DNA from: a virus
IMG/VR virus record: IMGVR_UViG_3300007609_000003
Coordinates: 62,001-126,000 of that record
Length of the DNA stretch: 64,000 bases
Direction: 5' to 3' (one strand)
The notes under the pieces were generated by a model. That model worked only from the letters and a program-made list of their open reading frames with translations, did no database searches and was not told where the DNA came from. The number at the start of each line of letters is the position of its first letter. Positions within the stretch are counted from its first letter, which is position 1. Positions 6,901 through 21,754 of the stretch are shown here, in pieces. The position numbers and the translations under genes were made by a program.

Positions 6901-9163
6901 AAGAGGACCACAGGGATATCAGGGTCTACAAGGAAGCGTAGGTTTCCAAGGTCGCCAGGGTACAAAGGGCGCACAAGGTGTACAAGGGCGTCAAGGTTTC
7001 CAAGGTATTCGTGGATTCCAAGGAACCCAAGGTACGACCGGCGAGCAAGGTATTCAGGGTATTCAAGGCATCCAAGGAAACCAAGGTTTCCAGGGTATTC
7101 AAGGTATTGCACAAGCAGGGCCCCAAGGTCTTCAAGGCCAAGCGGGTTCGGTTCAGGGTATTCAGGGTTCCAAAGGCGCCGACGGCGAGGGCGGTGGGGA
7201 TCCGTTGCCGATAGGCCAAGAAGGTGAAGTATTATATAACACTCAAGATGATACAAACAATGCTCAGTTTGACGATCTAGTTAACATAGAACCAATTATC
7301 GTTTCTTCCGAAGGTGAGGTGCCAGATTACTTTACCGAGCCCGGACCACCTGCTCCAACTACGCAGGAGATTTTTGAAGACTGGTATAGGTTCTCACACA
7401 ACACGACAACTAATTACCCAGCACGCGAGGCCGATGTTAGCGAATCGCAATGGCAGTATGATTCTGTTGCCGACGAAATCGTTGGGTTAAATAACACTGG
7501 CACTGCAGTTGGATTTGTTTCAGATCTTAAGTACTCATTCTATACCCATACAGCTACTTTAAGAAGTGGGCAGTTTGATAACGATACCGTTGGGGTTGTT
7601 CTTGCATTCACGGCGGAAGGGACTCTTGGGCAACCGGATTACAGAGAATACACGCTAACAGCATTTAGAACTGCTGGCGGTACTATGGGCGGCCGCACAT
7701 GGGGTGTTTCATATAACATCCAACAGGCGGATGGGCAAATTATTGCTGATGGCAGTGCGGCAGTACCTGAGACCGGCGGATGGGCCGCGCTTGGATCTAC
7801 TATCGTCGACGTGGATAGACAAGGCGATACAATAATTGTAAAGACTTCTCCGTTTGGCAGCGCAGCATTGAGCGAAGCTTCAACTCTCACCATTGATTTA
7901 ACGGATCAAACGTTCGTTGACGATAGCGGTGATCCAGTCTTAGAAAAGTTTAGAGGCTTTAAATCTTACGGGTATATGGCTTATAGCCAAGGTGATGCAA
8001 GATTTAGTGGAGTTTTTAGCGGCATCTCACTTGGGGCGAATGTTGTGTATGATGTTGTGTCGGGTAAGGTATACGGCCCATCTGAAAATCTTCCATATTA
8101 CCAAGAGATCGTAGGAGCTGCAACATTTAATGACATTGCAGAACCGGGTCGTTTCTATAACAACCCGACATCTCACTTTACTACTTGGAGATCATCCTTT
8201 GATGAAAACAACTATATAATAGGCCGCGAAAACGGTGGTGGTAGTGGATCACAAGGTATTCAAGGTATTCAAGGTATTCAAGGAACGGATGGTGGCGGTA
8301 GCTCAATCGATTGCGTAGACTGCGACTATGACGAGCCAACAGATACGAATAACAGTGTAGCAATACACTCGAAGCAGTCAATGTATCTATTTATTGACGA
8401 TAATAACAGCGCAGGAGAAGATTCAAACTACTTTGGGTTCTATAACAATCTAGATCCATATTCGGACACAGTAAATAGAGATAATACCATCTTTAGGGTC
8501 GATGAGGACGGTTCAGTTCGAACAACAAATACGATATATGCAACAACAAGTGGAATACGTTTCCCTGATGATGCATACGGCGGTAGCGGTGACACTGCAA
8601 GGATCTACCTAGGAACTGGCGGAGGAGAGGCAACTCAGCTTACTCTTGAAATGACCAACGATATAAATGATGAGATACATCTAAAAGTCCCAGATGATAA
8701 CGGTGTAAAGATCAACGGATACACTGTTTACCACGAAGGGAACCATGTATGTGGTAACACAGGCGGTGGCGATGGTGGTGGTCTTTCTTCAAGAACCAAC
8801 CTGATCGTAGCTACATCTTCTTTGGCAGATGACGCAAGCGAAGATGTAAATCTAACCGGATTTAAAGGTTACGCGGTCTACGCAATCACAACTGATGAAG
8901 CCGCTTGGGTTAGATTATATATTAATGCTGCGGCAAGAACTGCCGATGCGAGTAGAAACGAATTTACGGACCCGGACCCAGACGCAGGAGTGATCCTGGA
9001 AGTTATAACGAACGGCGCTGAAACCGTTGTTATTTCACCTGCTGTCTTTGGTTTTAATGGCGAAGTTCCGCCAACTACAAATATACCAATGACCATTACG
9101 AACAAGTCAGGTTCGACCACTGCCATTCAAGTAACTGTTACTGCTCTTCAATTAGAGGTATAA
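3947..9163 (+). CDS. giant collagen-like tail fibre with lectin-like domain
   Basis: This protein has 1738 residues. A short N-terminal domain (1-40, with DGDIYVIGSVVFTYD) leads into long Gly-X-Gln-Gly collagen-like tracts such as QGIQGIQG. These are broken by three globular knobs at about nt 4957-5135, 5572-5810 and 6076-6280, each ending in VIDE...ELW.Y/WxG..WxNVG. After the last tract (about residue 1085) comes a jelly-roll/LamG-like domain (about 1140-1365) and a fibre tip with VYHEGN (near 1600), a motif seen in T4 long-fibre proteins. The tracts have few prolines, unlike animal collagen. The protein probably forms a long trimeric adsorption fibre. Confidence 0.88.
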   Translation: MAFPTNPADGDIYVIGSVVFTYDATTNVWVRSSAGDGGQGLQGIQGIQGPAQGVQGIQGIQGFQGNQGLQGEQGLQGTQGTQGTKGNQGTQGIQGIEGRGETGFQGLQGITGEQGLQGTQGVQGIQGWQGVQGTQGTIGEFGLQGLQGRRGIQGVQGFQGIQGVQGVQGTQGMQGVQGIQGNQGVQGMQGIQGVQGVQGLQGDQGIQGTGGLGEQGTQGITGEQGVQGTAGFGNQGLQGIQGTFGIQGFQGIQGVQGTQGLQGLQGVQGIQGEQGIQGNQGFQGITGAGFQGLTGEQGIQGVQGTQGIQGNQGVQGVQGIMGEQGLQGSQGLQGNFGPALKIIGAVADVNTDPPNNPQTLLNGQFPSVNVGETVIDEATNELWAYTGGGTWVNVGELRGVQGIQGFQGIQGIRGFQGIQGISGQQGIQGEQGVQGLQGRQGIQGVQGIQGIQGTQGIQGEQGVQGLQGSPIQGMQGRQGIQGFDGIQGIQGNQGVQGIQGEQGVQGVQGIQGSQGVQGIQGGQGVQGLQGSQGLQGLQGVQGKTGDPFRIIGSIEDVNVNFPARTPEEIIREAFGPTLDGQPPTERPSIASPDISDGVIDEELNELWLWNGNEWINVGDIVGPQGIQGIQGMQGVQGTQGIQGIQGITGEQGVQGIQGAAIQGIQGIQGVQGIIGNRGFQGFQGIQGVQGTAIQGTQGITGEQGVQGIQGKVGNPFRILGSVQDVNQAPTFDPQVILETSFPDPSPGDAVIDEATNNLWTYTPDAGGEWINVGNIVGPQGIQGVQGLQGTQGNQGIQGEQGTQGATGQQGTYGRQGVQGTGNTGSQGLQGIQGNQGLRGPGQGVQGTQGNQGIQGIQGTRGVQGRQGIQGRQGLQGMQGIRGQQGLQGSQGVQGVQGLQGTQGRQGIQGIQGIQGIQGIQGIQGLQGIQGIQGRQGIQGIQGRQGIQGRQGRQGIQGSQGVQGIQGTQGQQGRQGRQGRQGTQGQRGPQGYQGLQGSVGFQGRQGTKGAQGVQGRQGFQGIRGFQGTQGTTGEQGIQGIQGIQGNQGFQGIQGIAQAGPQGLQGQAGSVQGIQGSKGADGEGGGDPLPIGQEGEVLYNTQDDTNNAQFDDLVNIEPIIVSSEGEVPDYFTEPGPPAPTTQEIFEDWYRFSHNTTTNYPAREADVSESQWQYDSVADEIVGLNNTGTAVGFVSDLKYSFYTHTATLRSGQFDNDTVGVVLAFTAEGTLGQPDYREYTLTAFRTAGGTMGGRTWGVSYNIQQADGQIIADGSAAVPETGGWAALGSTIVDVDRQGDTIIVKTSPFGSAALSEASTLTIDLTDQTFVDDSGDPVLEKFRGFKSYGYMAYSQGDARFSGVFSGISLGANVVYDVVSGKVYGPSENLPYYQEIVGAATFNDIAEPGRFYNNPTSHFTTWRSSFDENNYIIGRENGGGSGSQGIQGIQGIQGTDGGGSSIDCVDCDYDEPTDTNNSVAIHSKQSMYLFIDDNNSAGEDSNYFGFYNNLDPYSDTVNRDNTIFRVDEDGSVRTTNTIYATTSGIRFPDDAYGGSGDTARIYLGTGGGEATQLTLEMTNDINDEIHLKVPDDNGVKINGYTVYHEGNHVCGNTGGGDGGGLSSRTNLIVATSSLADDASEDVNLTGFKGYAVYAITTDEAAWVRLYINAAARTADASRNEFTDPDPDAGVILEVITNGAETVVISPAVFGFNGEVPPTTNIPMTITNKSGSTTAIQVTVTALQLEV

Positions 9164-11016: not shown

Positions 11017-11688
11017 ATGTTTACTCACAAAGACCACGGAATAACTCTTCCAGAGATTACTCGAAAGACTACAGAAACTGGGAGAAAGTATTACACTCCT
11101 GAAGGAAACGCGTACCCTTCTATCACAACGGTACTGTCTATCCTTGGCAAAGATTCAATTCAGGCATGGCGTAAACGCGTAGGCGAGGAAGAGGCAAATA
11201 GGATCTCTACTCAGGCCGCAACACGTGGTACTGCTGTTCACAAACTCGCCGAAGATTATTTAAACAACGAGAGCGATTGGCAAAAAGGTCATATGCCGGC
11301 CAACCTATTTTCGTTCGGCCAGTTAAAAGACGTTCTTGACGAAAAGGTAGATAACATATGGATGCAGGAGACCTTTCTGTATAGTGACCGTCTTAAATGC
11401 GCTGGTCAGGTAGACTGTATCGCAGAGTTCGAGGGTGAACTGTCTATCATTGACTTTAAGACTTCTCGTAAACCAAAGAAGAAGGAATGGATTACGAACT
11501 ACTTCATCCAAGCGGCCTTCTATGCTGCAGCCTTCTACGAAAGAACCGGTGTAGCGATCAAACAGGGTGTTATTCTAATTACCGTAGACGGTTCTGAACC
11601 ACAGATATTTAAAGTAAACACATATGATTACCTGCAGCATTTCCTTTCAGTAAGAAAAAAATACAAAGAGATGTATGAATACGGTTGA
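11017..11688 (+). CDS. PD-(D/E)XK exonuclease, MGME1-like
   Basis: The 223-residue protein has RGTAVHKLAEDYL (70-82, metal-site His75), GQVDCIAEF with Asp133, IIDFKTS with Asp146 and Lys148, and the supporting Gln165 in YFIQAAFYAAAF. This is the RecB/Cas4-like nuclease layout and most resembles the mitochondrial MGME1 family found in many phages, which degrades single-stranded DNA ends. The likely role is in DNA replication, recombination or host DNA degradation. It has its own promoter at 10961 and the next promoter overlaps its stop codon. Confidence 0.87.
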   Translation: MFTHKDHGITLPEITRKTTETGRKYYTPEGNAYPSITTVLSILGKDSIQAWRKRVGEEEANRISTQAATRGTAVHKLAEDYLNNESDWQKGHMPANLFSFGQLKDVLDEKVDNIWMQETFLYSDRLKCAGQVDCIAEFEGELSIIDFKTSRKPKKKEWITNYFIQAAFYAAAFYERTGVAIKQGVILITVDGSEPQIFKVNTYDYLQHFLSVRKKYKEMYEYG

Positions 11689-11713
11689 CATTTCATTTAG
11701 AATCAGTTATATT
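11685..11713 (+). promoter_or_regulatory. sigma70-like promoter of the shared-spacer family (TTGACA-17-TATATT)
   Basis: TTGACA at 11685-11690 overlaps the stop codon of the upstream gene, and TATATT lies at 11708-11713. The spacer carries TTTAGAATCAG and the leader TATATCAAATGAAAGGA, so this copy matches those at 107, 13124 and 13380. It drives the gene at 11741. Confidence 0.8.
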
Positions 11714-11740
11714 GATTATATCAAATGAAAGGAAACTAAC

Positions 11741-13178: not shown

Positions 13179-13361
13179 ATGATTGAATACTATGAAATGG
13201 TGAAAAAACTACGTGAACTAATTCGTAGCACTGATGGGCCTAACTCAAAGATACCTGCGTTCAAAATCATGGACCTCGCAGATGAACTGCAAGAAAAAGC
13301 AGAGAATGCCGAACTACAAATGATCGTTCAGATGCAACGTGATCGAGTTGAAAATTCTTAA
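13179..13361 (+). CDS. small helical early protein, unknown function
   Basis: A 60-residue charged helical protein (MIEYYEMVKKLRELIRS to a C-terminal coiled-coil-like segment). I chose ATG 13179 rather than the in-frame ATG 13164, because the latter lies inside the conserved leader whose GAAAGGA serves as the ribosome site for 13179. Function unknown. Confidence 0.65.
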   Translation: MIEYYEMVKKLRELIRSTDGPNSKIPAFKIMDLADELQEKAENAELQMIVQMQRDRVENS

Positions 13362-13379
13362 TCTAAACGAAAAAAGTTG

Positions 13380-13408
13380 TTGACATTTCGTTTAGAATCA
13401 GTTATATT
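13380..13408 (+). promoter_or_regulatory. sigma70-like promoter of the shared-spacer family (TTGACA-17-TATATT)
   Basis: TTGACA at 13380-13385 and TATATT at 13403-13408, with the TTTAGAATCAG spacer. It is nearly identical to the copy at 11685 from the -35 box through TATATCA. It drives the DUF932 gene at 13447. Confidence 0.8.
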
Positions 13409-13446
13409 GTTTATATCAGATGAAAACAAACTGAAGGAAATATAAA

Positions 13447-14397
13447 ATGCACGAACTTGAGATCGTTAACGGTGAAGCACAGATGGCATACCGTGAAAGC
13501 AAAGGACTTCCTTGGCATGGTCTTGGTACTCCAGTTGGAGACGACATGACTCCTCAACAAATGATGGAGGCAGCAGGCCTCGATTGGGGAGTGGAAAAGG
13601 TAGATACCTTTATTCGCTACAAAGGCGATAACGTTGCGACCGGACAACAAGCGTTGGTTCGTTCTACTGACGGAAAGATCCTTACGCAAGTAGGACCAGG
13701 TTGGAACCCAGTTCAAAATGAAGAAGCTTTTGAGTTCTTTAATGAATTTGTATCCGGTGGCGACATGATCATGGATACTGCAGGTTCTCTTAAGGATGGC
13801 CGGTTAGTCTGGGCTCTTGCAGATGTTAAGGATGGATTTTCTCTGTTCAATGGTGATGAAGTAAAAGGTTACCTCCTGTTCTCCAACCCACATATCTATG
13901 GTAAGTCTATTGACATCAAGTTCGTCATGGAACGCGTAGTCTGTAACAACACACTCGCAGTTGCTCTTAACGAAGCAGGTCAACCTTCTGTTCGCGTCAA
14001 CCACCGCTCGGTATTCGATGCGGGTCGCGTCAAGGAAATCCTTGGCCTCGGTCACAACAAGGTCGAGAAGTTCAAAGAAGCCGCAGAGTTCCTTGGATCA
14101 AAGCGTTACACCGATGAGCAACTGACTCAGTTCTTTGGCGTTGTATTCGGCAAATCTTCAAAAGAAAAAGAAGAACTTGCTCGTAACGCAAAAGAAGCAA
14201 TGTCAATCGTTGAGGACCAACCAGGCGATCACTTTGCTCCAGGAACATGGTGGAACGCATACAACGCGGTTACATATATGACTGACCATAAACTGGGTCG
14301 TTCTGCCGATACTCGTATGGCTTCTGCCTGGTTCGGTGGAAACGCAAAGCGCAAGGTTGACGCCTTGGATCTTGCACTGGAGATGGCCGATGCCTAA
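13447..14397 (+). CDS. DUF932 phage/plasmid-like protein
   Basis: The 316-residue protein matches the DUF932 (phage/plasmid-like, LGT_TIGR03299-type) family through ESKGLPWHGLGTPV, DWGVEKVDTFIRYKG, FNEFVSGGDMIMDTAGSLKDGRLVWALA and RVVCNNTLAVAL. Family members are common on phages and plasmids, and their biochemical role is unknown. It has its own strong promoter at 13380 and a GAAGGA ribosome site. The stop overlaps a tiny membrane-protein gene that begins at 14390. Confidence 0.88.
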   Translation: MHELEIVNGEAQMAYRESKGLPWHGLGTPVGDDMTPQQMMEAAGLDWGVEKVDTFIRYKGDNVATGQQALVRSTDGKILTQVGPGWNPVQNEEAFEFFNEFVSGGDMIMDTAGSLKDGRLVWALADVKDGFSLFNGDEVKGYLLFSNPHIYGKSIDIKFVMERVVCNNTLAVALNEAGQPSVRVNHRSVFDAGRVKEILGLGHNKVEKFKEAAEFLGSKRYTDEQLTQFFGVVFGKSSKEKEELARNAKEAMSIVEDQPGDHFAPGTWWNAYNAVTYMTDHKLGRSADTRMASAWFGGNAKRKVDALDLALEMADA

Positions 14398-14488
14398 TAT
14401 TACGGACACAACTTTTGCTATAGTCATTGGATTGGCTATAGCGTCCATCCTTATCTTTGTCGATCCATTGGGTATCGTTCATATCTAA
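14390..14488 (+). CDS. tiny single-pass membrane protein
   Basis: A 32-residue ORF starts inside the end of the DUF932 gene (8-base overlap). It contains one hydrophobic segment, AIVIGLAIASILIFV. The overlap suggests coupled translation. It is short, so it could be a chance ORF, but the clear transmembrane pattern supports it. The hemA stem-loop begins six bases after the stop. Confidence 0.5.
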   Translation: MPNITDTTFAIVIGLAIASILIFVDPLGIVHI

Positions 14489-14493
14489 AGAAA

Positions 14494-14549
14494 GCCTTCG
14501 CAAATAAATATATGTTTATACAAGCTATTTAACATTTGTTTGCGAAGGC
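14494..14549 (+). promoter_or_regulatory. stem-loop with late-promoter-like octamer; hides the hemA SD
   Basis: GCCTTCGCAAA (14494-14504) pairs perfectly with TTTGCGAAGGC (14539-14549) across a 34-base loop. AATAAATA at 14503-14510 is one base from the T4 late octamer, and the same variant precedes the tail tube gene at 27116. GAAGG in the 3' arm is the ribosome site for ATG 14556, seven bases away. The design equals that at 2141-2175: read-through RNA is blocked and late-initiated RNA is open. Confidence 0.72.
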
Positions 14550-14555
14550 ACAGCT

Positions 14556-15755
14556 ATGAAATACTCAGAATACTTCAATCAGACCATAAAGGACTTTAAA
14601 GACGACGGGCGTTACCGAGTCTTCAACGATATACTGAGAGAACGTGGTAACTTTCCTCGATCTATATGGTATGGTAAGTATGCGCCAAAGAACATAATTA
14701 ACTGGTGCTCAAACGATTACCTAGGAATGGGACAGAACCGGTTCGTGATCGACTCTATGCATACAGCTCTTGACCAAACCGGCGCAGGATCCGGTGGAAC
14801 GAGAAACATAGGTGGTACTTCTCACTATCATGTAACTCTTGAGCGTGAGTTGGCCTCACTACACAGTAGAAGCGGAGCGTTGCTATTCACAAGCGCGTAT
14901 GTTGCAAACGAATGGTCGCTAGTTGCACTATCACGCATCATACCAGACATTTGTTTCATTTCAGATAATAAAAACCATGCTTCTTTAATTATGGGAATGA
15001 AACATTCTCGAGCAGAGAAGAAAGTATTTCAACATAACGATATGGAAGATCTGGAGACTCAGTTAAAGAATGCCGTAAAAGAAAAACTAAATCCTGTTAT
15101 CGTTTTTGAGTCCGTCTATAGTATGGATGGGGATGTAAGTCCAATTAAAGATATCGTTGCGTTGGCAAAGAAGTATGATGCTCTAACTTACATTGACGAA
15201 GTTCATGCGGTTGGATTATACGGTAAACATGGTGGAGGAATGTGTGAAGAACTCAACCTATGGGCCGATGATATAGACATAATTAACGGAACTCTAGGAA
15301 AAGCATTTGGAGTTCAAGGAGGTTACATTGCGGCAAATAAAGAAATTGTTGATGCTATTCGATCTGTTGCAAGTGGATTTATCTTTACCACTAGTATGTC
15401 ACCGGTATTATGCGCAGGGGCTCTCGCCTCTATAAATTACCTCAAGGATCATTCATCTTTAAGAGACGAACATCAATCGAAAGCCAAGAAACTCAAACAA
15501 ATGTTGCAAGAGTACGATATACCAGTACACCCAAACGCATGTACTCATATTGTCCCAGTCATGGTTAACGACGCATTTAAGGCAAAGGAAGCAAGCGATA
15601 GACTACTCAATGAGTATGGAATATACATACAAGCAATCAATAGCCCAACTGTAGAAGTTGGAACAGAAAGACTTCGGATAGCACCTACACCGTATCATAC
15701 AGATGTAATGATGATGGAACTGGTAACTGCACTAAAAGAAGTTTTAACCAAATAA
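14556..15755 (+). CDS. hemA: 5-aminolevulinate synthase
   Basis: The 399-residue protein is a complete PLP enzyme of the alpha-oxoamine synthase group, condensing glycine and succinyl-CoA to 5-aminolevulinate, the first step of the C4 haem pathway. Diagnostic ALAS segments are [13 protein letters not shown] (77-89), [12 protein letters not shown] (140-151), [10 protein letters not shown] (184-193), [10 protein letters not shown] (214-223) and [12 protein letters not shown] with the PLP lysine K249. The C-terminal [19 protein letters not shown] is typical of ALAS and not of KBL or BioF. The C4 pathway is the alphaproteobacterial route. A stem-loop with a late-promoter-like element precedes it, so late expression is likely. 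Nothing suggests decay. Confidence 0.94.
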
Positions 15756-15767
15756 AGGTAATATATA

Positions 15768-16124
15768 ATGTTTTCAAACACTGCGCCGTCTGCCGTCATA
15801 AATGCGCTAATACAATGCGCTGCTTTATATGCTTCTTCCTACGGAATAGATTGGGCAATGTATCCTGTGATGGGAATGATTGGCTACATCGCGTTTATGC
15901 AATCAATCGCGGCATCGAGTTTATTTTCTGGCCTAGTTGGTTCTGAACCGGATGAAGAAACTGGCAACTATTCGCTTTCAGTGCTCATTGCCATTCTATA
16001 CTTAGCATCATCTTACCACGTGTATACGTTAGGATATACGGTTTTTTCTGGATTTATGTTTGCACACTCCGCGATTTTTTTATTGACAAATGTTTTTGGA
16101 ATTATAAAACTAGTAAAAGATTAA
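15768..16124 (+). CDS. four-helix integral membrane protein, unknown function
   Basis: This 118-residue hydrophobic protein has about four transmembrane segments, including VINALIQCAALYASS, YPVMGMIGYIAFMQSIAAS, LSVLIAILYLASSYHVYTLGY and FMFAHSAIFLLTNVFGI. A short charged loop, EPDEETGN, sits in the middle. It follows hemA by 12 bases and precedes the APS-kinase-like gene by 14 bases, so all are in one operon. I do not recognise a family. Confidence 0.75.
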   Translation: MFSNTAPSAVINALIQCAALYASSYGIDWAMYPVMGMIGYIAFMQSIAASSLFSGLVGSEPDEETGNYSLSVLIAILYLASSYHVYTLGYTVFSGFMFAHSAIFLLTNVFGIIKLVKD

Positions 16125-16138
16125 TCTGAGGTTATATA

Positions 16139-16567
16139 ATGAAGATTCTAATTATGGGACTCCCCGGTTCCGGTAAAACTTGGTTAGCTGAACGACTCCA
16201 GGCTCGTCTTAATTGTGCCTGGTTTAACGCAGACACAGTTAGACACATGGCCAACGATTGGGAGTTTAGTGAAGCTGCTAGACTTCGCCAAGCGTATCGT
16301 ATGAAATCATTAGCAGATTTTGAATTAGAAATGAAACGCACTGTCATATGCGACTTCGTATGCCCACTTGAAGAAACACGTGATATCTTCAACGCTGACT
16401 ACACCGTTTGGATGGATACTATCGAAAAAGGTCGTTTTAGTGATACGAATAGCATGTTTCAAAAACCAAATAAAGTAGATTATCATGTAACTAAGTGGTT
16501 TGATAACACAGACGAAACTTTAGCAAATGCTGTTGAGCGTCATATTAGGATACATAACGATGTTTGA
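16139..16567 (+). CDS. adenylylsulfate-kinase-like P-loop kinase
   Basis: The 142-residue protein has a P-loop GLPGSGKT at 7-14, then NADTVRHMAND (30-40), FSEAARLRQ (43-51), VICDFVCPLEETR (69-81) and VWMDTIEKGRFSDTN (90-104). These line up with the APS-kinase pattern DGDNVR, FSEADR, ISPY.xxR and the ADP-side lid, so it probably phosphorylates adenylylsulfate to give PAPS. It is shorter than cellular CysC (about 200 residues) because the C-terminal helices are missing. A related small kinase activity is possible. It overlaps the nucleotidyltransferase gene by 8 bases, suggesting joint action. Confidence 0.72.
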   Translation: MKILIMGLPGSGKTWLAERLQARLNCAWFNADTVRHMANDWEFSEAARLRQAYRMKSLADFELEMKRTVICDFVCPLEETRDIFNADYTVWMDTIEKGRFSDTNSMFQKPNKVDYHVTKWFDNTDETLANAVERHIRIHNDV

Positions 16568-16970
16568 TTATCAAAAACCAACAGTTCAAATGCTTGGTAG
16601 ATGGCAACCTTGGCACGACGGTCATACAGAACTATTTAAAAAAGCACTTGCAGAAACAGGTCAAGTTTGTATTATGGTTCGTGATGTAGGCGGTATCGTT
16701 GGCGAAGACGCAGGTGCCGGACGCACAACACCGCAAGACGATAATCCATTTGATTGCCATACTGTATCTATGAATATTGAAAAAGGATTAGCAAGCGCGG
16801 GCTTTACGCTCCGTGAAGAATATATTATAATGTTTGTACCTAATATTGTAGATATTAGTTACGGCCGCGGTGTAGGATATACCTTGACAGAACACGATCT
16901 TGGTGATACAATACATAGTATAAGCGCAACTAAAATAAGAAAACGAATGAGAGAAGAAGGAACATTATGA
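16560..16970 (+). CDS. HxGH nucleotidyltransferase, candidate partner of the APS-kinase-like protein
   Basis: The 136-residue protein has the nucleotidyltransferase signature GRWQPWHDGHTELF, with HDGH at 19-22, and a second motif ISATKIRKRMR at 121-131. These are shared by cytidylyltransferases, NMN adenylyltransferases and ATP sulfurylases. Because it overlaps the APS-kinase-like gene, a role in making adenylylsulfate is a reasonable guess, but substrate residues cannot be assigned. ATG 16560 gives the natural N-terminus and overlaps the previous stop. The next gene overlaps its end by four bases. Confidence 0.72.
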   Translation: MFDYQKPTVQMLGRWQPWHDGHTELFKKALAETGQVCIMVRDVGGIVGEDAGAGRTTPQDDNPFDCHTVSMNIEKGLASAGFTLREEYIIMFVPNIVDISYGRGVGYTLTEHDLGDTIHSISATKIRKRMREEGTL

Positions 16971-17275
16971 ATACCCAAACACCGCAGTCACTCCCTTCAA
17001 CGGTTACAGACCACGATCGAAAAATCATCCAGGACGCTCTACGAGAAATGTCTGACTCAATGACTCGTATCTCTGCAGAAAAGGATCTACAAAAAGAAAT
17101 TGCTGAAACTATTCTCGAAAAGGTAAACGTACCAAAGAAAGATTTTAACAAACTGGCGCGCATCTTTCATGCTTCGAATTTAATGGAAGAAGCTGCTCGC
17201 AACGAAGAATTTATGGGATTTGCAGAAGCTGTAATGGTTCCTGTCTCAAATCAAATTGAAAATAAGGAAGCATAA
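16967..17275 (+). CDS. dsbA: DsbA-like late-promoter accessory protein
   Basis: The 102-residue helical protein contains KEIAETILEKVNVPKKDFNKLARIFHASN (about 48-76). This matches the core of the T4 DsbA protein, a double-stranded DNA-binding RNA-polymerase accessory factor that binds late promoters. The remainder is charged with an acidic tail. ATGA overlaps tie it to the genes on both sides. A late-transcription helper fits the many TATAAATA elements in this genome. The match is on a short protein and should be tested by profile search. Confidence 0.65.
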   Translation: MNTQTPQSLPSTVTDHDRKIIQDALREMSDSMTRISAEKDLQKEIAETILEKVNVPKKDFNKLARIFHASNLMEEAARNEEFMGFAEAVMVPVSNQIENKEA

Positions 17276-17682
17276 TGGAATATAAATATAAGTCTATTGG
17301 ACTGATGAATACCATTTCAGAACTTAGCGCAATGCCGAGGGAAATGTGGAATACTGTCATGACGATCGAAAATTCCCCTCTTAAGAACTTTGATCCTATG
17401 GTAGCTCATATGATATTTCAAGTTCTTGCCTTTATCTGGAGTGGAATTTTTGCCGCAATGCTCGGAAGCTATATTGCATTTGGAGTAAGTGCATTTCTAC
17501 ACGCGATGTTTATCAGTGGCGTCGTGATTACGGCGGTAACGTTTCGCCAAGCCGAGAAGGCAAAACCAAATTTTAACTTGCGCCCAGGATATCACTCGGT
17601 AAGTCGCACTCGCCAAACTATGTGGATCAACGGAGAGCTAATTGAATTGAGTTCTAAAGATCCTGGAGGAGAACATGAGTAA
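17275..17682 (+). CDS. integral membrane protein, unknown function
   Basis: The 135-residue protein has a soluble N-terminal part (about 1-40) and two or three hydrophobic segments: MIFQVLAFIWSGIFAAMLGSYIAFGVSAFL and MFISGVVITAVTF. A hydrophilic C-terminus of about 40 residues follows. The start codon overlaps the stop of the DsbA-like gene by one base. TATAAATA occurs at 17281-17288 inside the first codons, followed by a second in-frame ATG at 17305; this may be coincidence. Confidence 0.72.
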   Translation: MEYKYKSIGLMNTISELSAMPREMWNTVMTIENSPLKNFDPMVAHMIFQVLAFIWSGIFAAMLGSYIAFGVSAFLHAMFISGVVITAVTFRQAEKAKPNFNLRPGYHSVSRTRQTMWINGELIELSSKDPGGEHE

Positions 17683-17746
17683 AAAATTAATGGAATTCAA
17701 ACCTTTCCCCTGGGCTAAAGATTTGCCAGAAGTAACTGGTAGATAA
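17675..17746 (+). CDS. possible 23-residue peptide
   Basis: A short ORF (MSKKLMEFKPFPWAKDLPEV...) overlaps the end of the membrane-protein gene by 8 bases and has GGAGGA just upstream of its ATG. The strong ribosome site is the main support. It may also serve to couple translation to the lipoprotein gene downstream. Confidence 0.4.
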   Translation: MSKKLMEFKPFPWAKDLPEVTGR

Positions 17747-17776
17747 TAAAGTATTACAAAATGGAGAACATGACTA

Positions 17777-17947
17777 ATGAATAAATATCTTACATATATC
17801 TGCGTTGCATCTTTTTTGCTTGTCGGTGCTTCTTGTTCAACTACTACCAGCAGCGTTAACAGCAGAATCAACAATTTAGAAACTGCACTGTGGCATAATG
17901 CGATAGACGAGGCAGGCCGGAGTGCAAGTAGGAGTTTTAGGCAATGA
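17777..17947 (+). CDS. small lipoprotein-like secreted protein
   Basis: A 56-residue protein with a Lys-containing N-terminus, hydrophobic core YICVASFLLVGAS and Cys20, a lipoprotein-type signal peptide. The -3 residue is Gly rather than Leu/Val/Ile, so lipidation is likely but not certain. The mature part is Ser/Thr-rich and then charged (NSRINNLETALWHN). The size would also suit an outer-membrane spanin (Rz1-like), though the mature part is not proline-rich. ATGA overlap with the DoxX-like gene. Confidence 0.6.
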   Translation: MNKYLTYICVASFLLVGASCSTTTSSVNSRINNLETALWHNAIDEAGRSASRSFRQ

Positions 17948-18354
17948 TTAAGAAATTTGTAAACAAGATACCAGAGTTTTGCATGAGTCATTGGCTTATT
18001 CGCATTCCTTTGATTGTCGTATTCTTGCAACAGGGCTTTGACAAATGGCCGATCGATGCTGGTATGGCAGAAGCGTTTGGGCTTACTCTTTTAGTATGGA
18101 CATTTGTTGTACTAGGAGAAATCGGTGGAGCAGTTGGCCTTGTTGTCGGTGGTCTCTTGGACTATACTAAACGATTTAAAGAGTTGGGTGATCTCATTAC
18201 ACGTTTCTCTGGAATCGTTATTACTGGTATCATGACTGGTGTTATCTGGGTAGGCGAGCCTGAGAGTTTTACATACGTATTGCTGTATGATAACTTTCAC
18301 GTCTTACTCTGGGTAGGCGGCATGTACTTTGCTCTACGAGGCAATAGGACATGA
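17944..18354 (+). CDS. DoxX-like four-helix membrane protein
   Basis: The 136-residue membrane protein shows the DoxX pattern: RIPLIVVFLQQGFDKWP near 20-36, GEIGGAVGLVVGGLLDY near 59-75 and RFSGIVITGIMTGVIW near 88-103. The final segment DNFHVLLWVGGMYFALRG follows. DoxX-type proteins are small membrane subunits linked in some bacteria to terminal oxidases or thiol/redox balance. The overlap with the lipoprotein gene and the nearby pseudoazurin suggest a membrane redox function, which is inference. Confidence 0.65.
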   Translation: MIKKFVNKIPEFCMSHWLIRIPLIVVFLQQGFDKWPIDAGMAEAFGLTLLVWTFVVLGEIGGAVGLVVGGLLDYTKRFKELGDLITRFSGIVITGIMTGVIWVGEPESFTYVLLYDNFHVLLWVGGMYFALRGNRT

Positions 18355-18464
18355 TCGCCACTGCCTTATACTTTGTAATGGTGTATGGCTTTATGGCAGG
18401 TATGATCGCGTATGCTTGGGTGAAAGAACCTAAAGACTCAGACAACACGGGCATGAGACTATGA
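18351..18464 (+). CDS. small single-pass membrane protein
   Basis: A 37-residue ORF with one hydrophobic segment (TALYFVMVYGFMAGMIAYAWV) and a short charged tail. It overlaps both neighbours by four bases (ATGA), which supports it as a translated, coupled gene. The shape resembles the tiny subunits of respiratory complexes such as CcoQ/CydX-type peptides; this is only an analogy. Confidence 0.55.
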   Translation: MIATALYFVMVYGFMAGMIAYAWVKEPKDSDNTGMRL

Positions 18465-18652
18465 AACCAAATACGCAGTTTGAGCTTAATGTTAATGACA
18501 TTAACTTAATAGAAGAAGGCCTTACACTACTACAGCATCATAGAATGGGTGCTGTAGGGTTTGAGGTTCAAGAAATCGAGGATCTGAAAGCTAGGATCTT
18601 TCACCAGAAAAACTGGTACAGGCCAAAGAACGAAATCTATATTGGAGGGTAA
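18461..18652 (+). CDS. small hypothetical protein
   Basis: A 63-residue protein with a helical centre (DINLIEEGLTLLQHHRM and EIEDLKARIFHQ). This resembles small conserved phage proteins of unknown function. It overlaps the preceding gene by four bases, and three bases separate it from the pseudoazurin gene. A GGAGG motif in its last codons is the ribosome site for the next gene. Confidence 0.65.
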   Translation: MKPNTQFELNVNDINLIEEGLTLLQHHRMGAVGFEVQEIEDLKARIFHQKNWYRPKNEIYIGG

Positions 18653-18655
18653 ACG

Positions 18656-19108
18656 ATGAGACTATTAACAGTACTAACAGCACTAACACTGGGCTTTTGC
18701 ACACCAGCCTTTGCTGAAACAGAGTTGCCTGCAGAATACACTTTAGAAATGTGGAACAGAGATCCGGATGACCGTAAGCGTAAGATGGTATTCTCTGAAG
18801 ATGTAATCACCGTGGCACCGGGTGCAGAAGTTACTTGGTTAGCAACAGATCGTGGTCATAATGTAGAGTTTATTGATGGCCCTGATGGCGTTGAGTTGGC
18901 AGACAAGTCAAAACTCAATAAAGACGTAACTATCACAATGACGGAGCCAGGCGTATATGTGTATGTATGTACACCGCACGCAACTATGGGCATGATTGGC
19001 GTAGTAGTCGTAGGTGTTGCAACACCAGAAGCAATCGCGCAAGCAGCGGATGCCAAGGTACGCGGCAAGTCAAAAAAGAAACTAAAAGATCTACTATCAG
19101 ACCTGTAA
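18656..19108 (+). CDS. pseudoazurin (blue copper protein) with signal peptide
   Basis: The 150-residue precursor has a signal peptide ending at AFA20, so the protein goes to the periplasm. The mature part has the type 1 copper ligands His68 (GHNVEF), Cys105, His108 and Met113 in YVCTPHATMGMIGVV. Cys-to-His and Cys-to-Met distances (3 and 8) equal those of pseudoazurin. The C-terminal helical extension (ATPEAIAQAADAK...KKLKDLL) is also pseudoazurin-like. It would carry electrons between cytochromes and reductases or oxidases. GGAGG precedes the start. It is the last gene before a strong terminator. Confidence 0.9.
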   Translation: MRLLTVLTALTLGFCTPAFAETELPAEYTLEMWNRDPDDRKRKMVFSEDVITVAPGAEVTWLATDRGHNVEFIDGPDGVELADKSKLNKDVTITMTEPGVYVYVCTPHATMGMIGVVVVGVATPEAIAQAADAKVRGKSKKKLKDLLSDL

Positions 19109-19130
19109 GTTTATAAACAAGACTTTGAGA

Positions 19131-19163
19131 AAACAGAGGTACACTGCCTCTGTTTTTTTTTTT
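19131..19163 (+). terminator. rho-independent terminator after the pseudoazurin gene
   Basis: AAACAGAGG (19131-19139) pairs with CCTCTGTTT (19147-19155) around a 7-base loop, followed by an unbroken T run to 19163. It closes the hemA-pseudoazurin operon. Confidence 0.9.
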
Positions 19164-19173
19164 CTTAAAATGG

Positions 19174-19202
19174 TTGACATCACTCAACTTTTATGGTATT
19201 GT
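19174..19202 (+). promoter_or_regulatory. sigma70-like promoter (TTGACA-17-TATTGT)
   Basis: TTGACA at 19174-19179 and TATTGT at 19197-19202 with 17 bases between, right after the terminator. AGGAG follows at 19214-19218 for the gene at 19226. Confidence 0.7.
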
Positions 19203-19225
19203 ATTATATGTAAAGGAGAATCAAT

Positions 19226-19393
19226 ATGGGTAAACACCTTAAGACACAAATTGACTACGATATGATTGAACAGCTCGGACAAGAGGTATTTCGATTAGAT
19301 CCAACAAACTCGGTGCTTCAAAAGTTTATGCAGATGGATAACTTTGAAGGTAGTGAACTGCGCAAAAGCGTAAGCAGTAAAAAACAAACCTAA
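19226..19393 (+). CDS. small hypothetical protein
   Basis: A 55-residue charged helical protein (YDMIEQLGQEVFRLDPTNSVLQKFMQM) with AAGGAG 8 bases upstream of ATG 19226. It is the first gene behind the promoter at 19174. Function unknown. Confidence 0.65.
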   Translation: MGKHLKTQIDYDMIEQLGQEVFRLDPTNSVLQKFMQMDNFEGSELRKSVSSKKQT

Positions 19394-19400
19394 TTGTAAA

Positions 19401-19535
19401 ATGTATCTGAATAAAATTTTATTAAGTTTTATATTTGCAGTTATGGTATTATGGCAAATTTCAATTTGGCCGTTCACACGAATTGCAGAAGAGATCCGTT
19501 ATAGAAAACAGCATAAAAGGAAAGATCGTGAATAA
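19401..19535 (+). CDS. small single-pass membrane protein
   Basis: A 44-residue protein with one transmembrane segment (ILLSFIFAVMVLWQISIW) and a basic C-terminus (RYRKQHKRKDRE). The TAA stop overlaps the GTG start of the following gene. The basic tail should face the cytoplasm. Function unknown. Confidence 0.6.
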   Translation: MYLNKILLSFIFAVMVLWQISIWPFTRIAEEIRYRKQHKRKDRE

Positions 19536-19707
19536 TGATGATATTCTTGAACAAGTAAGATCTCTTAGAGAAGAGATGAAGCAGCTTAAGTATCTTCTCT
19601 TGGGCGAAAAAGAGGATACAGACTTTGATATCGAAAGTTTAGATCCAGATAAACGTAGTTGGTACTATGATGATACCGGGGTGAAAAGGAAAAAAGATGA
19701 GCGATAA
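19528..19707 (+). CDS. small coiled-coil protein, GTG start
   Basis: A 59-residue protein: a helix (NNDDILEQVRSLREEMKQL) then an acidic segment (ESLDPDKRSWYYDDTG). The longer in-frame start at 19435 would overlap the whole membrane-protein gene. GTG 19528 has AAAGGAAAG just upstream and the usual 8-base overlap, so I chose it. Function unknown. Confidence 0.6.
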   Translation: MNNDDILEQVRSLREEMKQLKYLLLGEKEDTDFDIESLDPDKRSWYYDDTGVKRKKDER

Positions 19708-19876
19708 AACATACTATTGTACACTAAAAGGTCTTGGCTGGGCTTTCTTGCTAATTACGTTCTTTATGCTTGGCGTGCCTTTACTTATGAACCTTGCTAT
19801 CATGGGACCAGAACAGTACGGTAACTACTGCGTACGAGCCATTCACATGCCATGTTTTGGATTAGGTAATGACTAA
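19697..19876 (+). CDS. small membrane protein, unknown function
   Basis: A 59-residue protein with one long hydrophobic segment (LGWAFLLITFFMLGVPLLMNLAI) followed by a loop with two cysteines (NYCVRAIHMPCFG). The loop may be periplasmic and disulfide-bonded. It overlaps both neighbours (11 and 8 bases), so translation is coupled. Confidence 0.6.
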   Translation: MSDKTYYCTLKGLGWAFLLITFFMLGVPLLMNLAIMGPEQYGNYCVRAIHMPCFGLGND

Positions 19877-20315
19877 TAACTTGGAGTTCAATCCAACCTT
19901 TACTCCGTATGAAATGTTGGAACTCGGGATCTTTGATGGTAAGTACTATCTGCCAACGAACAAAGATTTCAACAGAACTCCTATTATTAGACAAAAGAAC
20001 CTTTTTATGGAAGGAGCATCTCAACCTCTTTCTGTATGGAAAGAGAACGGCTGGATCACTCCTGAGGATCCTATGGGTTGGTTCCAATGGTATCTACGTT
20101 ACTACCAGGGACGCCGGATAGATGATCTAGACACACATCAGATTAAAAGGTGGAAATCGTTTGTTGCTCGCCACTCTGCGCAGGTTCGTAAAAATGGAAA
20201 TGGAGATCTAAATAAACGTTTAAAGCAGCGCCAAGCTCTTTTACATTGGGCTGCGGATCCTATTCCTGATATGGACATACAGAACAAGTATGAGTTCTTA
20301 AAGCAATACAAATAA
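19869..20315 (+). CDS. conserved phage protein, unknown function
   Basis: The 148-residue protein is aromatic and basic, with FTPYEMLELGIFDGKYYLP near 11-29 and EDPMGWFQWYLRYYQGRR near 66-83. These are followed by IKRWKSFVARHSAQVRKNG and RLKQRQALLHWA. This pattern is familiar from proteins shared by large DNA viruses and T4-like phages, without known function. The WFQWYxRYY...RRxD run and paired basic helices suggest nucleic-acid contact. It is the last plus-strand gene before the convergent terminators. Confidence 0.75.
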   Translation: MTNNLEFNPTFTPYEMLELGIFDGKYYLPTNKDFNRTPIIRQKNLFMEGASQPLSVWKENGWITPEDPMGWFQWYLRYYQGRRIDDLDTHQIKRWKSFVARHSAQVRKNGNGDLNKRLKQRQALLHWAADPIPDMDIQNKYEFLKQYK

Positions 20316-20396: not shown

Positions 20397-21707
20397 TTAG
20401 AACAAGTTGCTGACGCGAACTCTTCTGTAGTATACGTTGCTGTTCGCTGTGAGAGCGCCTTCGCTGCGGGCTGAGCCGAATGCGAATGGGTTTGCAACCA
20501 TACCGTAACGAGTTTTGAACCCGATTTTTGGCTGGAAGCTGTTCTCACCAACTGCACGGTACATCTGTAGTGGAACATATGGGCAGTAGAAGAGGCCTGC
20601 GTCAAACGCGCTGGAACCTTTATAACCTACGACCATGTAGTTCGAACCTGCATATGGATCGATGTATACTCTGTAACGACCGTTTAGGATACCTGCGAAT
20701 GTGTTGCCTGTATCGTCAACGTTTAGCGCGTTGCTGTTAAGAGCTGGCGTATAATCGAGAACACCTGACATCTGAAGTGCTGATGCAACATCGGAAGAAC
20801 AGATAACGATGTTACCTTTACCTCTACGAGTTGCTTTTGCAATCGCGTTGGCTTCGATTTCAACTTGGAACATCAATCCTTTGAACTTCTCAACTGACCA
20901 ACGACCGTTTGCGTCAACGTCAAGATCGAATACACCGGCCGATGCAGTTGCCGCAGCACCTGTTACAGCTGTGTTATAGATCGTACGAACAACTTCGCGG
21001 TTGATTTCCGCAAGGATCTCAGACTGAAGAATGTTCGCGAGTTCTGTTTCTGCATCGAGACCGTGGACTGCGCGAAGATCCTGAGCGAGCTCAGTTGTGT
21101 ATTCCGCTTTCAACGCGCGGCTTTTCGCAGCTACAGTAACTTTTTCGATAGCAAGAGCCATCTCTGCAAAGTTTGTACCGTCGCCATCACCGAGTGCTTC
21201 AGCTGCAGCAGTATCCATACCTGTACCAGTATTAGCAGTTGCTGCACCACCGGTTGTACCAGCCATTGTGCCTGTACCAGAGAAGTCTGTATCAGCTTCG
21301 TTATAGAATGCTTCAGCAGCTGTGTTACCGGACATTGCGTTGTAGTTGGAACGCATTGCGAAGATCAAGCCTGTTGGGCCTGTCATTGGCTGAACGCCTG
21401 CAATGTCGTATGCCATTAGGTTTGGCATTGAGCGACGAACCAAGCTGATTAGAACTGGGTCATAACCTGCTGTTGGCGTTGCAGAAGCTGAACCAAAACC
21501 GCCTGTACCGGCAGCGTTAGTTGGAGCTTCTTGTAGAAGTGAAGTCATGTTGATTGACTGGTCACCGCTTTCTACGAGCGCCTTTTCTGTGTTCTCAAGG
21601 AGAGTAGCAGTAACTGCTTTTCTGTGCTCGTCCTTGATTTCTGCGAAAGAAGAATGCTCAAGAAGAGGACCCCACTTTTCGACTAAAGTTCTGCTAGATT
21701 GACTCAT
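20397..21707 (-). CDS. 23: major capsid protein precursor (T4 gp23)
   Basis: The 436-residue protein matches T4-type gp23, seen in PVLISLVRRSMPNLMAYDIAGVQPMTGPTGLIFAMR and the KSRALKAEYTTELAQDLRAVHGLDAE region. An N-terminal propeptide of about 60 residues ends at LQE60-A, which fits the prohead protease rule (Leu/Ile-x-Glu). It forms the hexamers of the head. A TATAAATA octamer lies 40 bases upstream, and GGAGA precedes the ATG. It is the last gene of the minus-strand head operon and runs into the UUCG terminator. Confidence 0.96.
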   Translation of the reverse strand: MSQSSRTLVEKWGPLLEHSSFAEIKDEHRKAVTATLLENTEKALVESGDQSINMTSLLQEAPTNAAGTGGFGSASATPTAGYDPVLISLVRRSMPNLMAYDIAGVQPMTGPTGLIFAMRSNYNAMSGNTAAEAFYNEADTDFSGTGTMAGTTGGAATANTGTGMDTAAAEALGDGDGTNFAEMALAIEKVTVAAKSRALKAEYTTELAQDLRAVHGLDAETELANILQSEILAEINREVVRTIYNTAVTGAAATASAGVFDLDVDANGRWSVEKFKGLMFQVEIEANAIAKATRRGKGNIVICSSDVASALQMSGVLDYTPALNSNALNVDDTGNTFAGILNGRYRVYIDPYAGSNYMVVGYKGSSAFDAGLFYCPYVPLQMYRAVGENSFQPKIGFKTRYGMVANPFAFGSARSEGALTANSNVYYRRVRVSNLF

Positions 21708-21746: not shown

Positions 21747-21754
21747 TATTTATA
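21747..21754 (-). promoter_or_regulatory. late promoter octamer upstream of gene 23
   Basis: TATAAATA on the minus strand, about 40 bases before the major capsid start at 21707. An exact consensus match in the expected position. Confidence 0.8.

Follow-up and report, generated by a model that had tools for sequence, protein, structure and literature searches.

What would a large bacterial virus do with a gene for pseudoazurin, a type-1 copper protein, that lies in one gene run with a gene for a DoxX-family membrane protein and another for 5-aminolevulinate synthase (ALAS)? The question is raised by a stretch of 64,000 nucleotides, positions 62001-126000 of the IMG/VR record IMGVR_UViG_3300007609_000003 (201,055 bases), which is referred to here as the window; the phage it belongs to is designated G000, other G-numbers denote longer records or genomes, and L-numbers denote fetched loci. 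An initial annotation had proposed that the genes at 17777-19108, together with ALAS, prop up or reroute host electron transfer late in infection. Comparison with related viruses suggests, with a probability of roughly 0.65, that these genes are part of a respiratory module which T4-like phages infecting marine alphaproteobacteria express early. The respiratory role is deduced from the partners of this gene cassette in other phages, namely a gene for a COX4-like protein and, in one gene run, genes for COX2, Cox11 and COX1, which supports the proposed tie to respiratory electron transfer.

Members of the cassette

The pseudoazurin gene (18656..19108, plus strand) encodes a protein with an apparent signal peptide that scores 58.4 bits against Pfam Copper-bind (cut-off 21.2), and in a search of the PDB with this sequence, 21 of the top 22 rows were pseudoazurins (best E 4e-23), the other being a blue copper protein. 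The NCBI pseudoazurin model TIGR02375 gave 98.2 bits, which is under its equivalog cut-off of 109.85, yet it is still the best NCBI model; together with the leading PDB pseudoazurins, this identifies the predicted product as a divergent pseudoazurin. Residues H68, C105, H108 and M113, which we take from known pseudoazurins to be the copper-binding residues, are invariant across 24 aligned phage sequences, and the full set of type 1 copper ligands described in the initial annotation is therefore present. The N-terminus displays, by eye, a hydrophobic stretch and an AFA-E site, a putative export signal. In a tree built by a quick method (83 rows, 141 columns, many forks unresolved), the window pseudoazurin falls within a starred all-phage group of nine, the one starred phage group, and its closest match among the rows, at 68% identity, is a phage protein; phage pseudoazurins overall do not form one clade, at least two label changes being forced. 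Cellular relatives, of which the best 80 of 363 were taken, are up to about 50% identical, and nearly all of their record titles name Alphaproteobacteria. Two of these 80 (L076 and L080) are, by eye, phage-like contigs in Muricauda and Neomarinimicrobiota genome bins. Among 50,697 isolate-phage records, the window pseudoazurin found no match at E 0.1, and for a related phage pseudoazurin the plastocyanin of P-RSM6 was the sole match (27.9%, two entries). A porin-like outer-membrane family without a Pfam match (41 related ORFs) recurs just 3' of phage pseudoazurin, for example at L008:9131-9925 and at other loci, and is found in the genome of G000 at L422:757-1548.

The DoxX protein (17944..18354, plus strand; 456 relatives in IMG/VR) exceeds the curated Pfam cut-off for PF07681 with 25.7 versus 23.6 bits, and its description as DoxX-like can thus be retained; all 16 aligned members match this family at E up to 10 (best 3.2e-9). 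A related phage DoxX had no match in the isolate-phage records at E 0.01, and no similar DoxX was found in plasmids at E 1e-3. DoxX of the phage type occurs in 14 of 385 alphaproteobacterial genomes, in four of them strongly, and the cellular gene lies directly 5' of what was, by eye, taken for NDH-2 in two of four neighbourhoods, these two being near-identical. The novel protein m135 (17275..17682, plus strand; at least 572 relatives in IMG/VR) has a conserved C-terminal GEH and was modelled with three helices, two of them of membrane-spanning length by eye (pLDDT 76.6; the DoxX model reached 86.5). It is present in 29 of the 385 genomes, the few neighbourhoods that were read sharing no constant gene, and the alphaproteobacterial genome G159 also has m135-like genes; among isolate phages a related m135 matched four records of Melnitz at 30.7% across half the query length. 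A further recurring member, o59 (19697..19876, plus strand; Ka/Ks 0.09), is a small protein with conserved cysteines. Both m135 and o59 belong to the same recurring cassette and lie outside the interval 17777-19108 that had been delimited initially. They may represent new families and candidate binders of cytochrome oxidase. PDB profile searches with DoxX, m135, o59 and the 37-residue peptide encoded 3' of DoxX yielded nothing below E 0.01. The idea that this peptide is akin to the CcoQ subunit of a cbb3 oxidase was dropped, as the PDB profile search lent it no support.

Recurrence, selection and insertion

The same gene set was sought in other phage genomes and recurs in many viral contigs. 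Scanning the viral sequences with the window pseudoazurin gave 65 loci, while 456 confirmed stretches carry the phage DoxX and at least 572 carry m135; at most 80 loci were retained per scan, as was the case for the latter two. Among 216 viral loci (L001-L065 and L147-L297), pseudoazurin was counted in 166, m135 in 147, DoxX in 136, the COX4-like family in 110 and o59 in 104, after ORFs outside set length ranges had been left out. Since three of the tallied cassette genes had served to select these loci, a fair test has to be conditional on the seed gene. When at least 3 kb was required on both sides, 37 of the 80 DoxX-seeded and 35 of the 80 m135-seeded loci qualified. A pseudoazurin gene lies within 3 kb and on the same strand in 34 of the 37 DoxX-seeded loci, corresponding to 21 of 23 distinct DoxX proteins. 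The link is looser for the 35 m135-seeded loci, where pseudoazurin was found in 18, o59 in 20, the COX4-like gene in 19 and DoxX in 10. The gene order of the cassette varies between phages, and tight junctions recur within it: 32 overlaps of 4 bp between the COX4-like and pseudoazurin genes, and 32 overlaps of 1 bp between pseudoazurin and DoxX. In both the locus and the junction counts, a virus that was assembled more than once contributes several near-copies. Alignments and trees were made after removal of near-identical sequences (string ratio above about 0.8-0.9). Median Ka/Ks values were 0.100 for pseudoazurin (467 pairs), 0.098 for DoxX (335), 0.102 for m135 (342), 0.087 for o59 (61) and 0.113 for the COX4-like gene (53 pairs, 94% of them below 0.5, the highest at 1.29), as is characteristic of genes under purifying selection.

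The two loci closest around ALAS, L338 and L339, in which ALAS is 90% identical to that of the window, share DNA with it up to 17275 and again from 20307 onward; between these boundaries they hold about 490 bases, compared to 3.0 kb in the window. By this DNA homology, the region 17276..20306 (no strand applies) constitutes a cargo island that is absent from the nearest relatives. L338-L343 keep the order DUF932-ALAS-m118-kinase-nucleotidyltransferase-o102 as well as gp23, and m135, DoxX and pseudoazurin were not seen in them. Thus, ALAS is the older element in this phage lineage, and the cassette was added to it. Among the 80 ALAS-seeded loci, pseudoazurin and DoxX occur near ALAS in four (L410-L413, of which L410-L412 look alike), and L018 and L213 display the same combination. 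The recurrence in many contigs and the clean boundary at 17275/20307 answer the concern, raised at the outset, that the gene set might be contamination or an assembly junction; judged by its sequences, it is a real, selected and mobile phage cassette. Two other groups of genes recur in its vicinity: a phage-borne periplasmic binding protein of the Bmp/PnrA type in 25 loci near the cassette (for instance L161:1993-3048 and L005:1446-2546), and a DUF1127 family with another small family beside Hsp20 and DoxX (L010:4782-4955 and L043:4034-4291).

Oxidase genes in related phages

For one member of cassette family c4, a first scan gave no Pfam match at E up to 5. The five best PDB matches to the profile of this family were all subunit IV of aa3 oxidase (E 0.026-0.076), and 24 of 28 members match PF07835 (COX4_pro_2) at E up to 10, the best at 2.7e-6; scanned singly, five of six lie over the 22-bit cut-off of PF07835, with scores of up to 27.9. 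We therefore refer to the family as COX4-like. In L005, which is located in G390, the cassette is preceded by oxidase core genes (4823-7726), resulting in the order COX2, Cox11, COX1, m135, c12, COX4-like, DoxX, o63 and pseudoazurin. COX2, Cox11, COX1 and pseudoazurin were recognised by Pfam with 154.7, 191, 529.4 and 55.0 bits, respectively, and m135, the COX4-like protein, DoxX and o63 by profiles or phmmer. In a second assembly (L433), COX2, Cox11 and COX1 are identical to those of L005 at the protein level and are followed by m135, the COX4-like gene and the first 115 residues of DoxX up to the contig end; a third (L438) holds COX2 and the start of Cox11. As the DNA identity of the main block among the assemblies is 97.2% and 96.5%, they are variants rather than copies. 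Among 190 alphaproteobacterial genomes searched, the nearest relatives of the L005 COX1 are 80-82% identical (G027 and G159), and it aligns with residues 10-552 of Paracoccus COX1, which is nearly the whole length.

A second, distant COX1 clade (support 100/100) is formed by L434-L437 (L434:3584-5930 and 13233-13952; L435:9536-11560; L436; L437). In L434, a fragment of ALAS, COX2 and COX1 are found within 6 kb, in addition to an iron-sulfur protein read as SdhB; DUF2244 is present in L435, and ALAS also occurs in G390 and G406. All six sequence patterns for the haem, CuB, K-channel and D-channel residues, which we take to be catalytic, are present in L005 and L434. In L435 the heme-a histidine is present and followed by alanine, so that the pattern is missed, and the L436 and L437 sequences are truncated where their contigs stop. 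When 2.9 million viral contigs were scanned twice by pattern, the same six and no others were recovered with COX1; as far as these patterns reach, oxidase cores thus seem to be rare in phages. ORFs matching G000 proteins at E < 1e-15 numbered 26 in G390, 18 in G407, 15 in G408, seven in G406, two in G409 and one in G410; a gene lying where stretches overlap may be counted twice (this happened in G407 at least once), and for G408, G409 and G410 the counts cover parts of the records. Neutral for the interpretation, no c-type cytochrome exceeded the PF13442 cut-off in any of 14 long phage records, one match below the cut-off occurring in G402.

Host and timing of expression

G000 is a large T4-like bacterial virus. 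T4-type head and tail genes occupy the minus strand of the window from 20397 onward, with PHROG matches for head (phrog_138), scaffold (237), protease (207), portal (213) and sheath (23); the first is the gp23-like major head protein (20397..21707, minus strand; phrog_138, 531.7 bits), with TATAAATA upstream at 21754. Also present in the genome are 24 genes for tRNAs and a permuted tmRNA, which scores 102.9 bits against RF01849, the tmRNA family of alphaproteobacteria. Together with the kinship of pseudoazurin and COX1, this family assignment points to an alphaproteobacterial host, and we infer that the virus is probably of marine origin.

A late role, as suggested by the initial annotation, is not supported by the transcription signals. 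The operon start is inferred at a sigma70-like promoter, TTGACA-17-TATATT (13380..13408, plus strand; 11 of 12 consensus positions), an element that is repeated elsewhere in G000 at 88-95% identity and also in relatives, and an intrinsic-terminator-like hairpin of 15 pairs plus a T run follows just 3' of pseudoazurin (19127..19159, plus strand). The longer repeated early-type element, TTGACATTTCGTTTAGAATCAGTTATATTG, is found in the window at 13380-13426 and 11684-11730, with copies in L424, L428 and L429. As promoter-like sites in the region are not more frequent than in shuffles (22 versus 20.0), the early or middle reading depends on the recurrence of this element and on the lack of late sites; terminator-like sites numbered nine, compared to 5.9 in shuffles (sd 2.5). 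The sequence TATAAATA, which we take to be the T4 late-promoter consensus, occurs within 100 bp upstream of 14 of 40 minus-strand ORFs of at least 100 residues versus one of 19 on the plus strand. Within 150 bp upstream, it precedes none of 167 phage pseudoazurin genes and eight of ten gp23 genes; the corresponding figures are 10 of 137 for DoxX, three of 148 for m135 and none of 110 for the COX4-like gene, all of these counts covering just the bases adjoining each gene. One plus-strand copy is located at 17281, within m135, and some late reading of the cassette may start from a farther-upstream TATAAATA. Transcription of the cassette is read from these signals as early or middle.

Proposed role and alternatives

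Based on these findings, we propose that the phage pseudoazurin would be exported and loaded with copper, take electrons from the bc1/cytochrome c level of the host and pass them to the host aa3 oxidase. Virus-specific subunits binding the oxidase would be m135, o59 and the 37-residue peptide, joined in other phages by the COX4-like protein, and DoxX would work at the quinone/dehydrogenase end. Since a copper carrier requires neither haem nor cytochrome c maturation, respiration and ATP supply could be sustained during the shut-off of host gene expression. ALAS may keep haem available, and in G000 it may equally feed heme oxygenase (HemO) and a bilin reductase. A more far-reaching and tentative version, which we consider somewhat less probable than its opposite, is that these phages rebuild the terminal oxidase of the host with a copper carrier and virus-specific small subunits (the COX4-like protein, m135, o59 and the 37-residue peptide), in some cases also with the catalytic core and Cox11, and that the resulting respiratory complex, peculiar to the virus, would feed early replication.

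Several observations weigh against a respiratory module. The oxidase genes were found in relatives and not in the phage of the window: COX1 has no match in G000 and occurs in one of the 14 long phage records searched, G000 among them, that one being G390, and the full run from the COX genes to pseudoazurin is known from one contig (L005). No convincing COX4-like gene is present in the window (best E 0.43), and the best match in the rest of G000 reaches E 0.03-0.06. The subunit IV match itself is short, about 28 residues, with PDB profile values of E 0.03-0.08, and two members deviate, L046 with 19.7 bits, below the cut-off, and L154 without a match. A search for head or portal proteins by PHROG gave no match in the six COX1 contigs, which does not show their absence, and the phage nature of these contigs therefore rests on the genes shared with G000. 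Models of DoxX and m135 matched no PDB structure below E 1, m135 and o59 are without a known family (for m135, no convincing Pfam family was obtained), and the neighbours of cellular pseudoazurin genes are, by eye, not respiratory. Finally, sequence cannot distinguish electrons going to the oxidase from electrons diverted away from it.

DoxX is part of mycobacterial oxidant-defence complexes, and the module might accordingly serve the stress response or the cell envelope, with DoxX in oxidant defence and pseudoazurin as a copper sink, and without contributing to the energy supply. In the vicinity of the cassette, genes for glutaredoxin are found repeatedly (PF00462 in one member; the family in 27 loci), and G000 encodes a ferritin-domain protein read as Dps. 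A stress module would not, however, be expected to show overlaps between COX4-like and pseudoazurin genes in many loci, nor COX1, COX2 and Cox11 in the same run as in L005, and we regard this explanation as unlikely, if the most serious of the alternatives. Pseudoazurin is also a known electron donor in denitrifiers, and by this textbook role it might donate to nitrite or nitrous oxide reductase, so that the phage would boost denitrification. The genes nirK/norB have been described on a viral contig (PMC8115048). NirK was, however, found in none of the 14 phage records, which speaks against the nitrite reduction suggested in the initial annotation, and no denitrification gene was recognised by eye among the families beside the cassette; a role of this kind is improbable. 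Even less can be said for a scheme in which pseudoazurin and ALAS serve a pathway from ALAS through HemO to bilin reductase, with the copper protein giving the electrons. G000 does encode HemO and a ferredoxin-dependent bilin reductase, and the loci searched hold ten HemO and seven reductase genes. These enzymes act in the cytoplasm with ferredoxin, whereas pseudoazurin bears its apparent export signal, and most cassette loci show neither gene in the fetched flanks.

That the cassette is an assembly chimera, host contamination or decaying cargo is the least credible of these possibilities, hardly to be entertained, even though all virus records are metagenomic and the queries of 50,697 isolate-phage records found none with the cassette. 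Its recurrence, its sharp borders and the purifying selection on its genes are at odds with an artefact, as are the COX1-m135-COX4-like-DoxX junctions in two assemblies with 97% DNA identity; and the recovery of the same six contigs among 2.9 million argues, as far as the patterns reach, that stray COX1 from hosts is uncommon there. The respiratory module thus remains the preferred explanation.

Relation to known systems

That phages control photosynthetic electron flow is well established. Like the pseudoazurin of the present cassette, the plastocyanin of cyanophages (PetE, phrog_515) is an electron carrier of the type-1 copper kind encoded by T4-like phages, and its similarity to the window pseudoazurin is weak (29.2 bits to phrog_515). 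In contrast to plastocyanin, the window protein belongs to a different cupredoxin family with an alphaproteobacterial host signal, and the cassette is linked to DoxX and aa3 oxidase genes rather than to photosystems. The L005 COX1 resembles that of alphaproteobacterial aa3 oxidases (Paracoccus 1ar1 and Rhodobacter 1m56), and the subunit IV-like PF07835 family is found in relatives; unlike these enzymes, the phage of the window has no core subunit, and for m135 and o59 no counterpart was found in the PDB. At the level of virome reads, cbb3 coxI (PMC3474794) as well as coxA, petB and cydA (PMC3877843) have been described; contamination is a concern at this level, and the passages concerned give neither a pseudoazurin cassette nor a genome context. 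A genome-resolved phage counterpart for aerobic respiration, combining a copper carrier with a subunit IV-like oxidase protein and at times with COX1/COX2/Cox11, was not found among the open-access PMC papers listed, subscription papers and preprints being outside this scope. The same literature yielded no phage pseudoazurin gene by title, no report of a virus cupredoxin as auxiliary metabolic gene, and nothing relevant by title on DoxX with marine phages. Of the combination that had been called not standard at the outset, ALAS is an already described phage gene (valaS) in the set hemO-pcyA/X-valaS (PMC11480375). Similarly to that set, G000 holds ALAS, HemO and bilin reductase genes, and the main text of PMC11480375 contains none of the words copper, plastocyanin, azurin or DoxX.

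In that paper, phage ALAS was proposed to support haem enzymes such as cytochrome c oxidase (PMC11480375). The present cassettes fit this idea, and they offer a way to test the published proposal directly for haem enzymes of respiration. As DoxX and m135 of this type are each encoded in hundreds of viral stretches at least, the cassette possibly affects the oxygen use of common aquatic alphaproteobacteria.

ALAS and the upstream gene run

The plus-strand gene run extends from 13447 to 19108, from DUF932 through ALAS, o102, m135, DoxX and o63 to pseudoazurin. ALAS (14556..15755, plus strand; TIGR01821, 558.7 bits versus a cut-off of 338.55) is indeed located upstream in the same operon, as had been noted. 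Its part in respiratory haem supply is less certain: since it is an already described gene of the older backbone and G000 possesses HemO and bilin reductase, ALAS in this phage need not serve respiration and may equally feed these two enzymes. The HemO and bilin reductase genes are positioned at L422:6975-8211, about 70 kb from ALAS in the genome. Among the isolate-phage matches listed for ALAS, identities are at most 35%, and the labelled ones are other acyltransferases. A strong hairpin (z -4.5) lies just upstream of the ALAS start at 14494-14545 and is not conserved in near relatives.

The remaining backbone genes are all encoded on the plus strand. The run opens with the DUF932 protein (13447..14397; PF06067, 133.8 bits; phrog_1221), and ALAS is followed by m118 (15768..16124), which has no Pfam or PHROG family and is kept in L338-L344. 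The kinase-like (16139..16567) and nucleotidyltransferase-like (16527..16970) proteins match the first and the second half of phrog_10255, respectively, the latter with a weak NMN adenylyltransferase match. The last backbone gene ahead of the island is o102 (16967..17275), which is kept in L338-L343.

Small genes of the island and further genome features

Also on the plus strand, a 23-residue micropeptide (17675..17746) overlaps the end of m135 and terminates in FPWAKDLPEVTGR, and a comparable ending recurs in four further viruses that carry cassette genes; in L154, such an ending is joined to another small protein. The possible lipoprotein (17777..17947, plus strand) is present as an ORF with a lipobox by eye, and its assignment is weak, as phmmer found no relative in the viral loci searched. 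Overlaps of 4 bp connect the lipoprotein and DoxX genes, DoxX and the 37-residue membrane peptide (18351..18464, plus strand), and the peptide and o63, in agreement with the ATGA junctions noted initially. The peptide is real in that a relative is encoded right behind DoxX in L148/L248 (one contig), in L154 and in L005. The coupled operon that had been drawn into pseudoazurin is borne out in its gene order; it had omitted the small protein o63 (18461..18652, plus strand), which precedes pseudoazurin, and pseudoazurin starts 3 bp past the o63 stop without an overlap. The o63 family, often located just 5' of pseudoazurin, occurs in 11 pseudoazurin loci, that of the window included, and also in cassette-free relatives.

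Names were assigned in two ways. NrdA, gp43, gp44, gp45, ThyX, NDH-2, nitroreductase, Dps and SdhB were named by eye from sequence, and the head proteins, portal, sheath, IMPDH/GMP reductase domain, Hsp20, glutaredoxin, HemO, bilin reductase, COX1, COX2, Cox11, subunit IV, Bmp, DUF2244 and the ferritin and iron-sulfur domains by Pfam or PHROG. G000 also encodes a phosphate-binding-type periplasmic binding protein, and a possible additional small membrane ORF of about 31 residues follows DUF932 in the window at 14394-14488.

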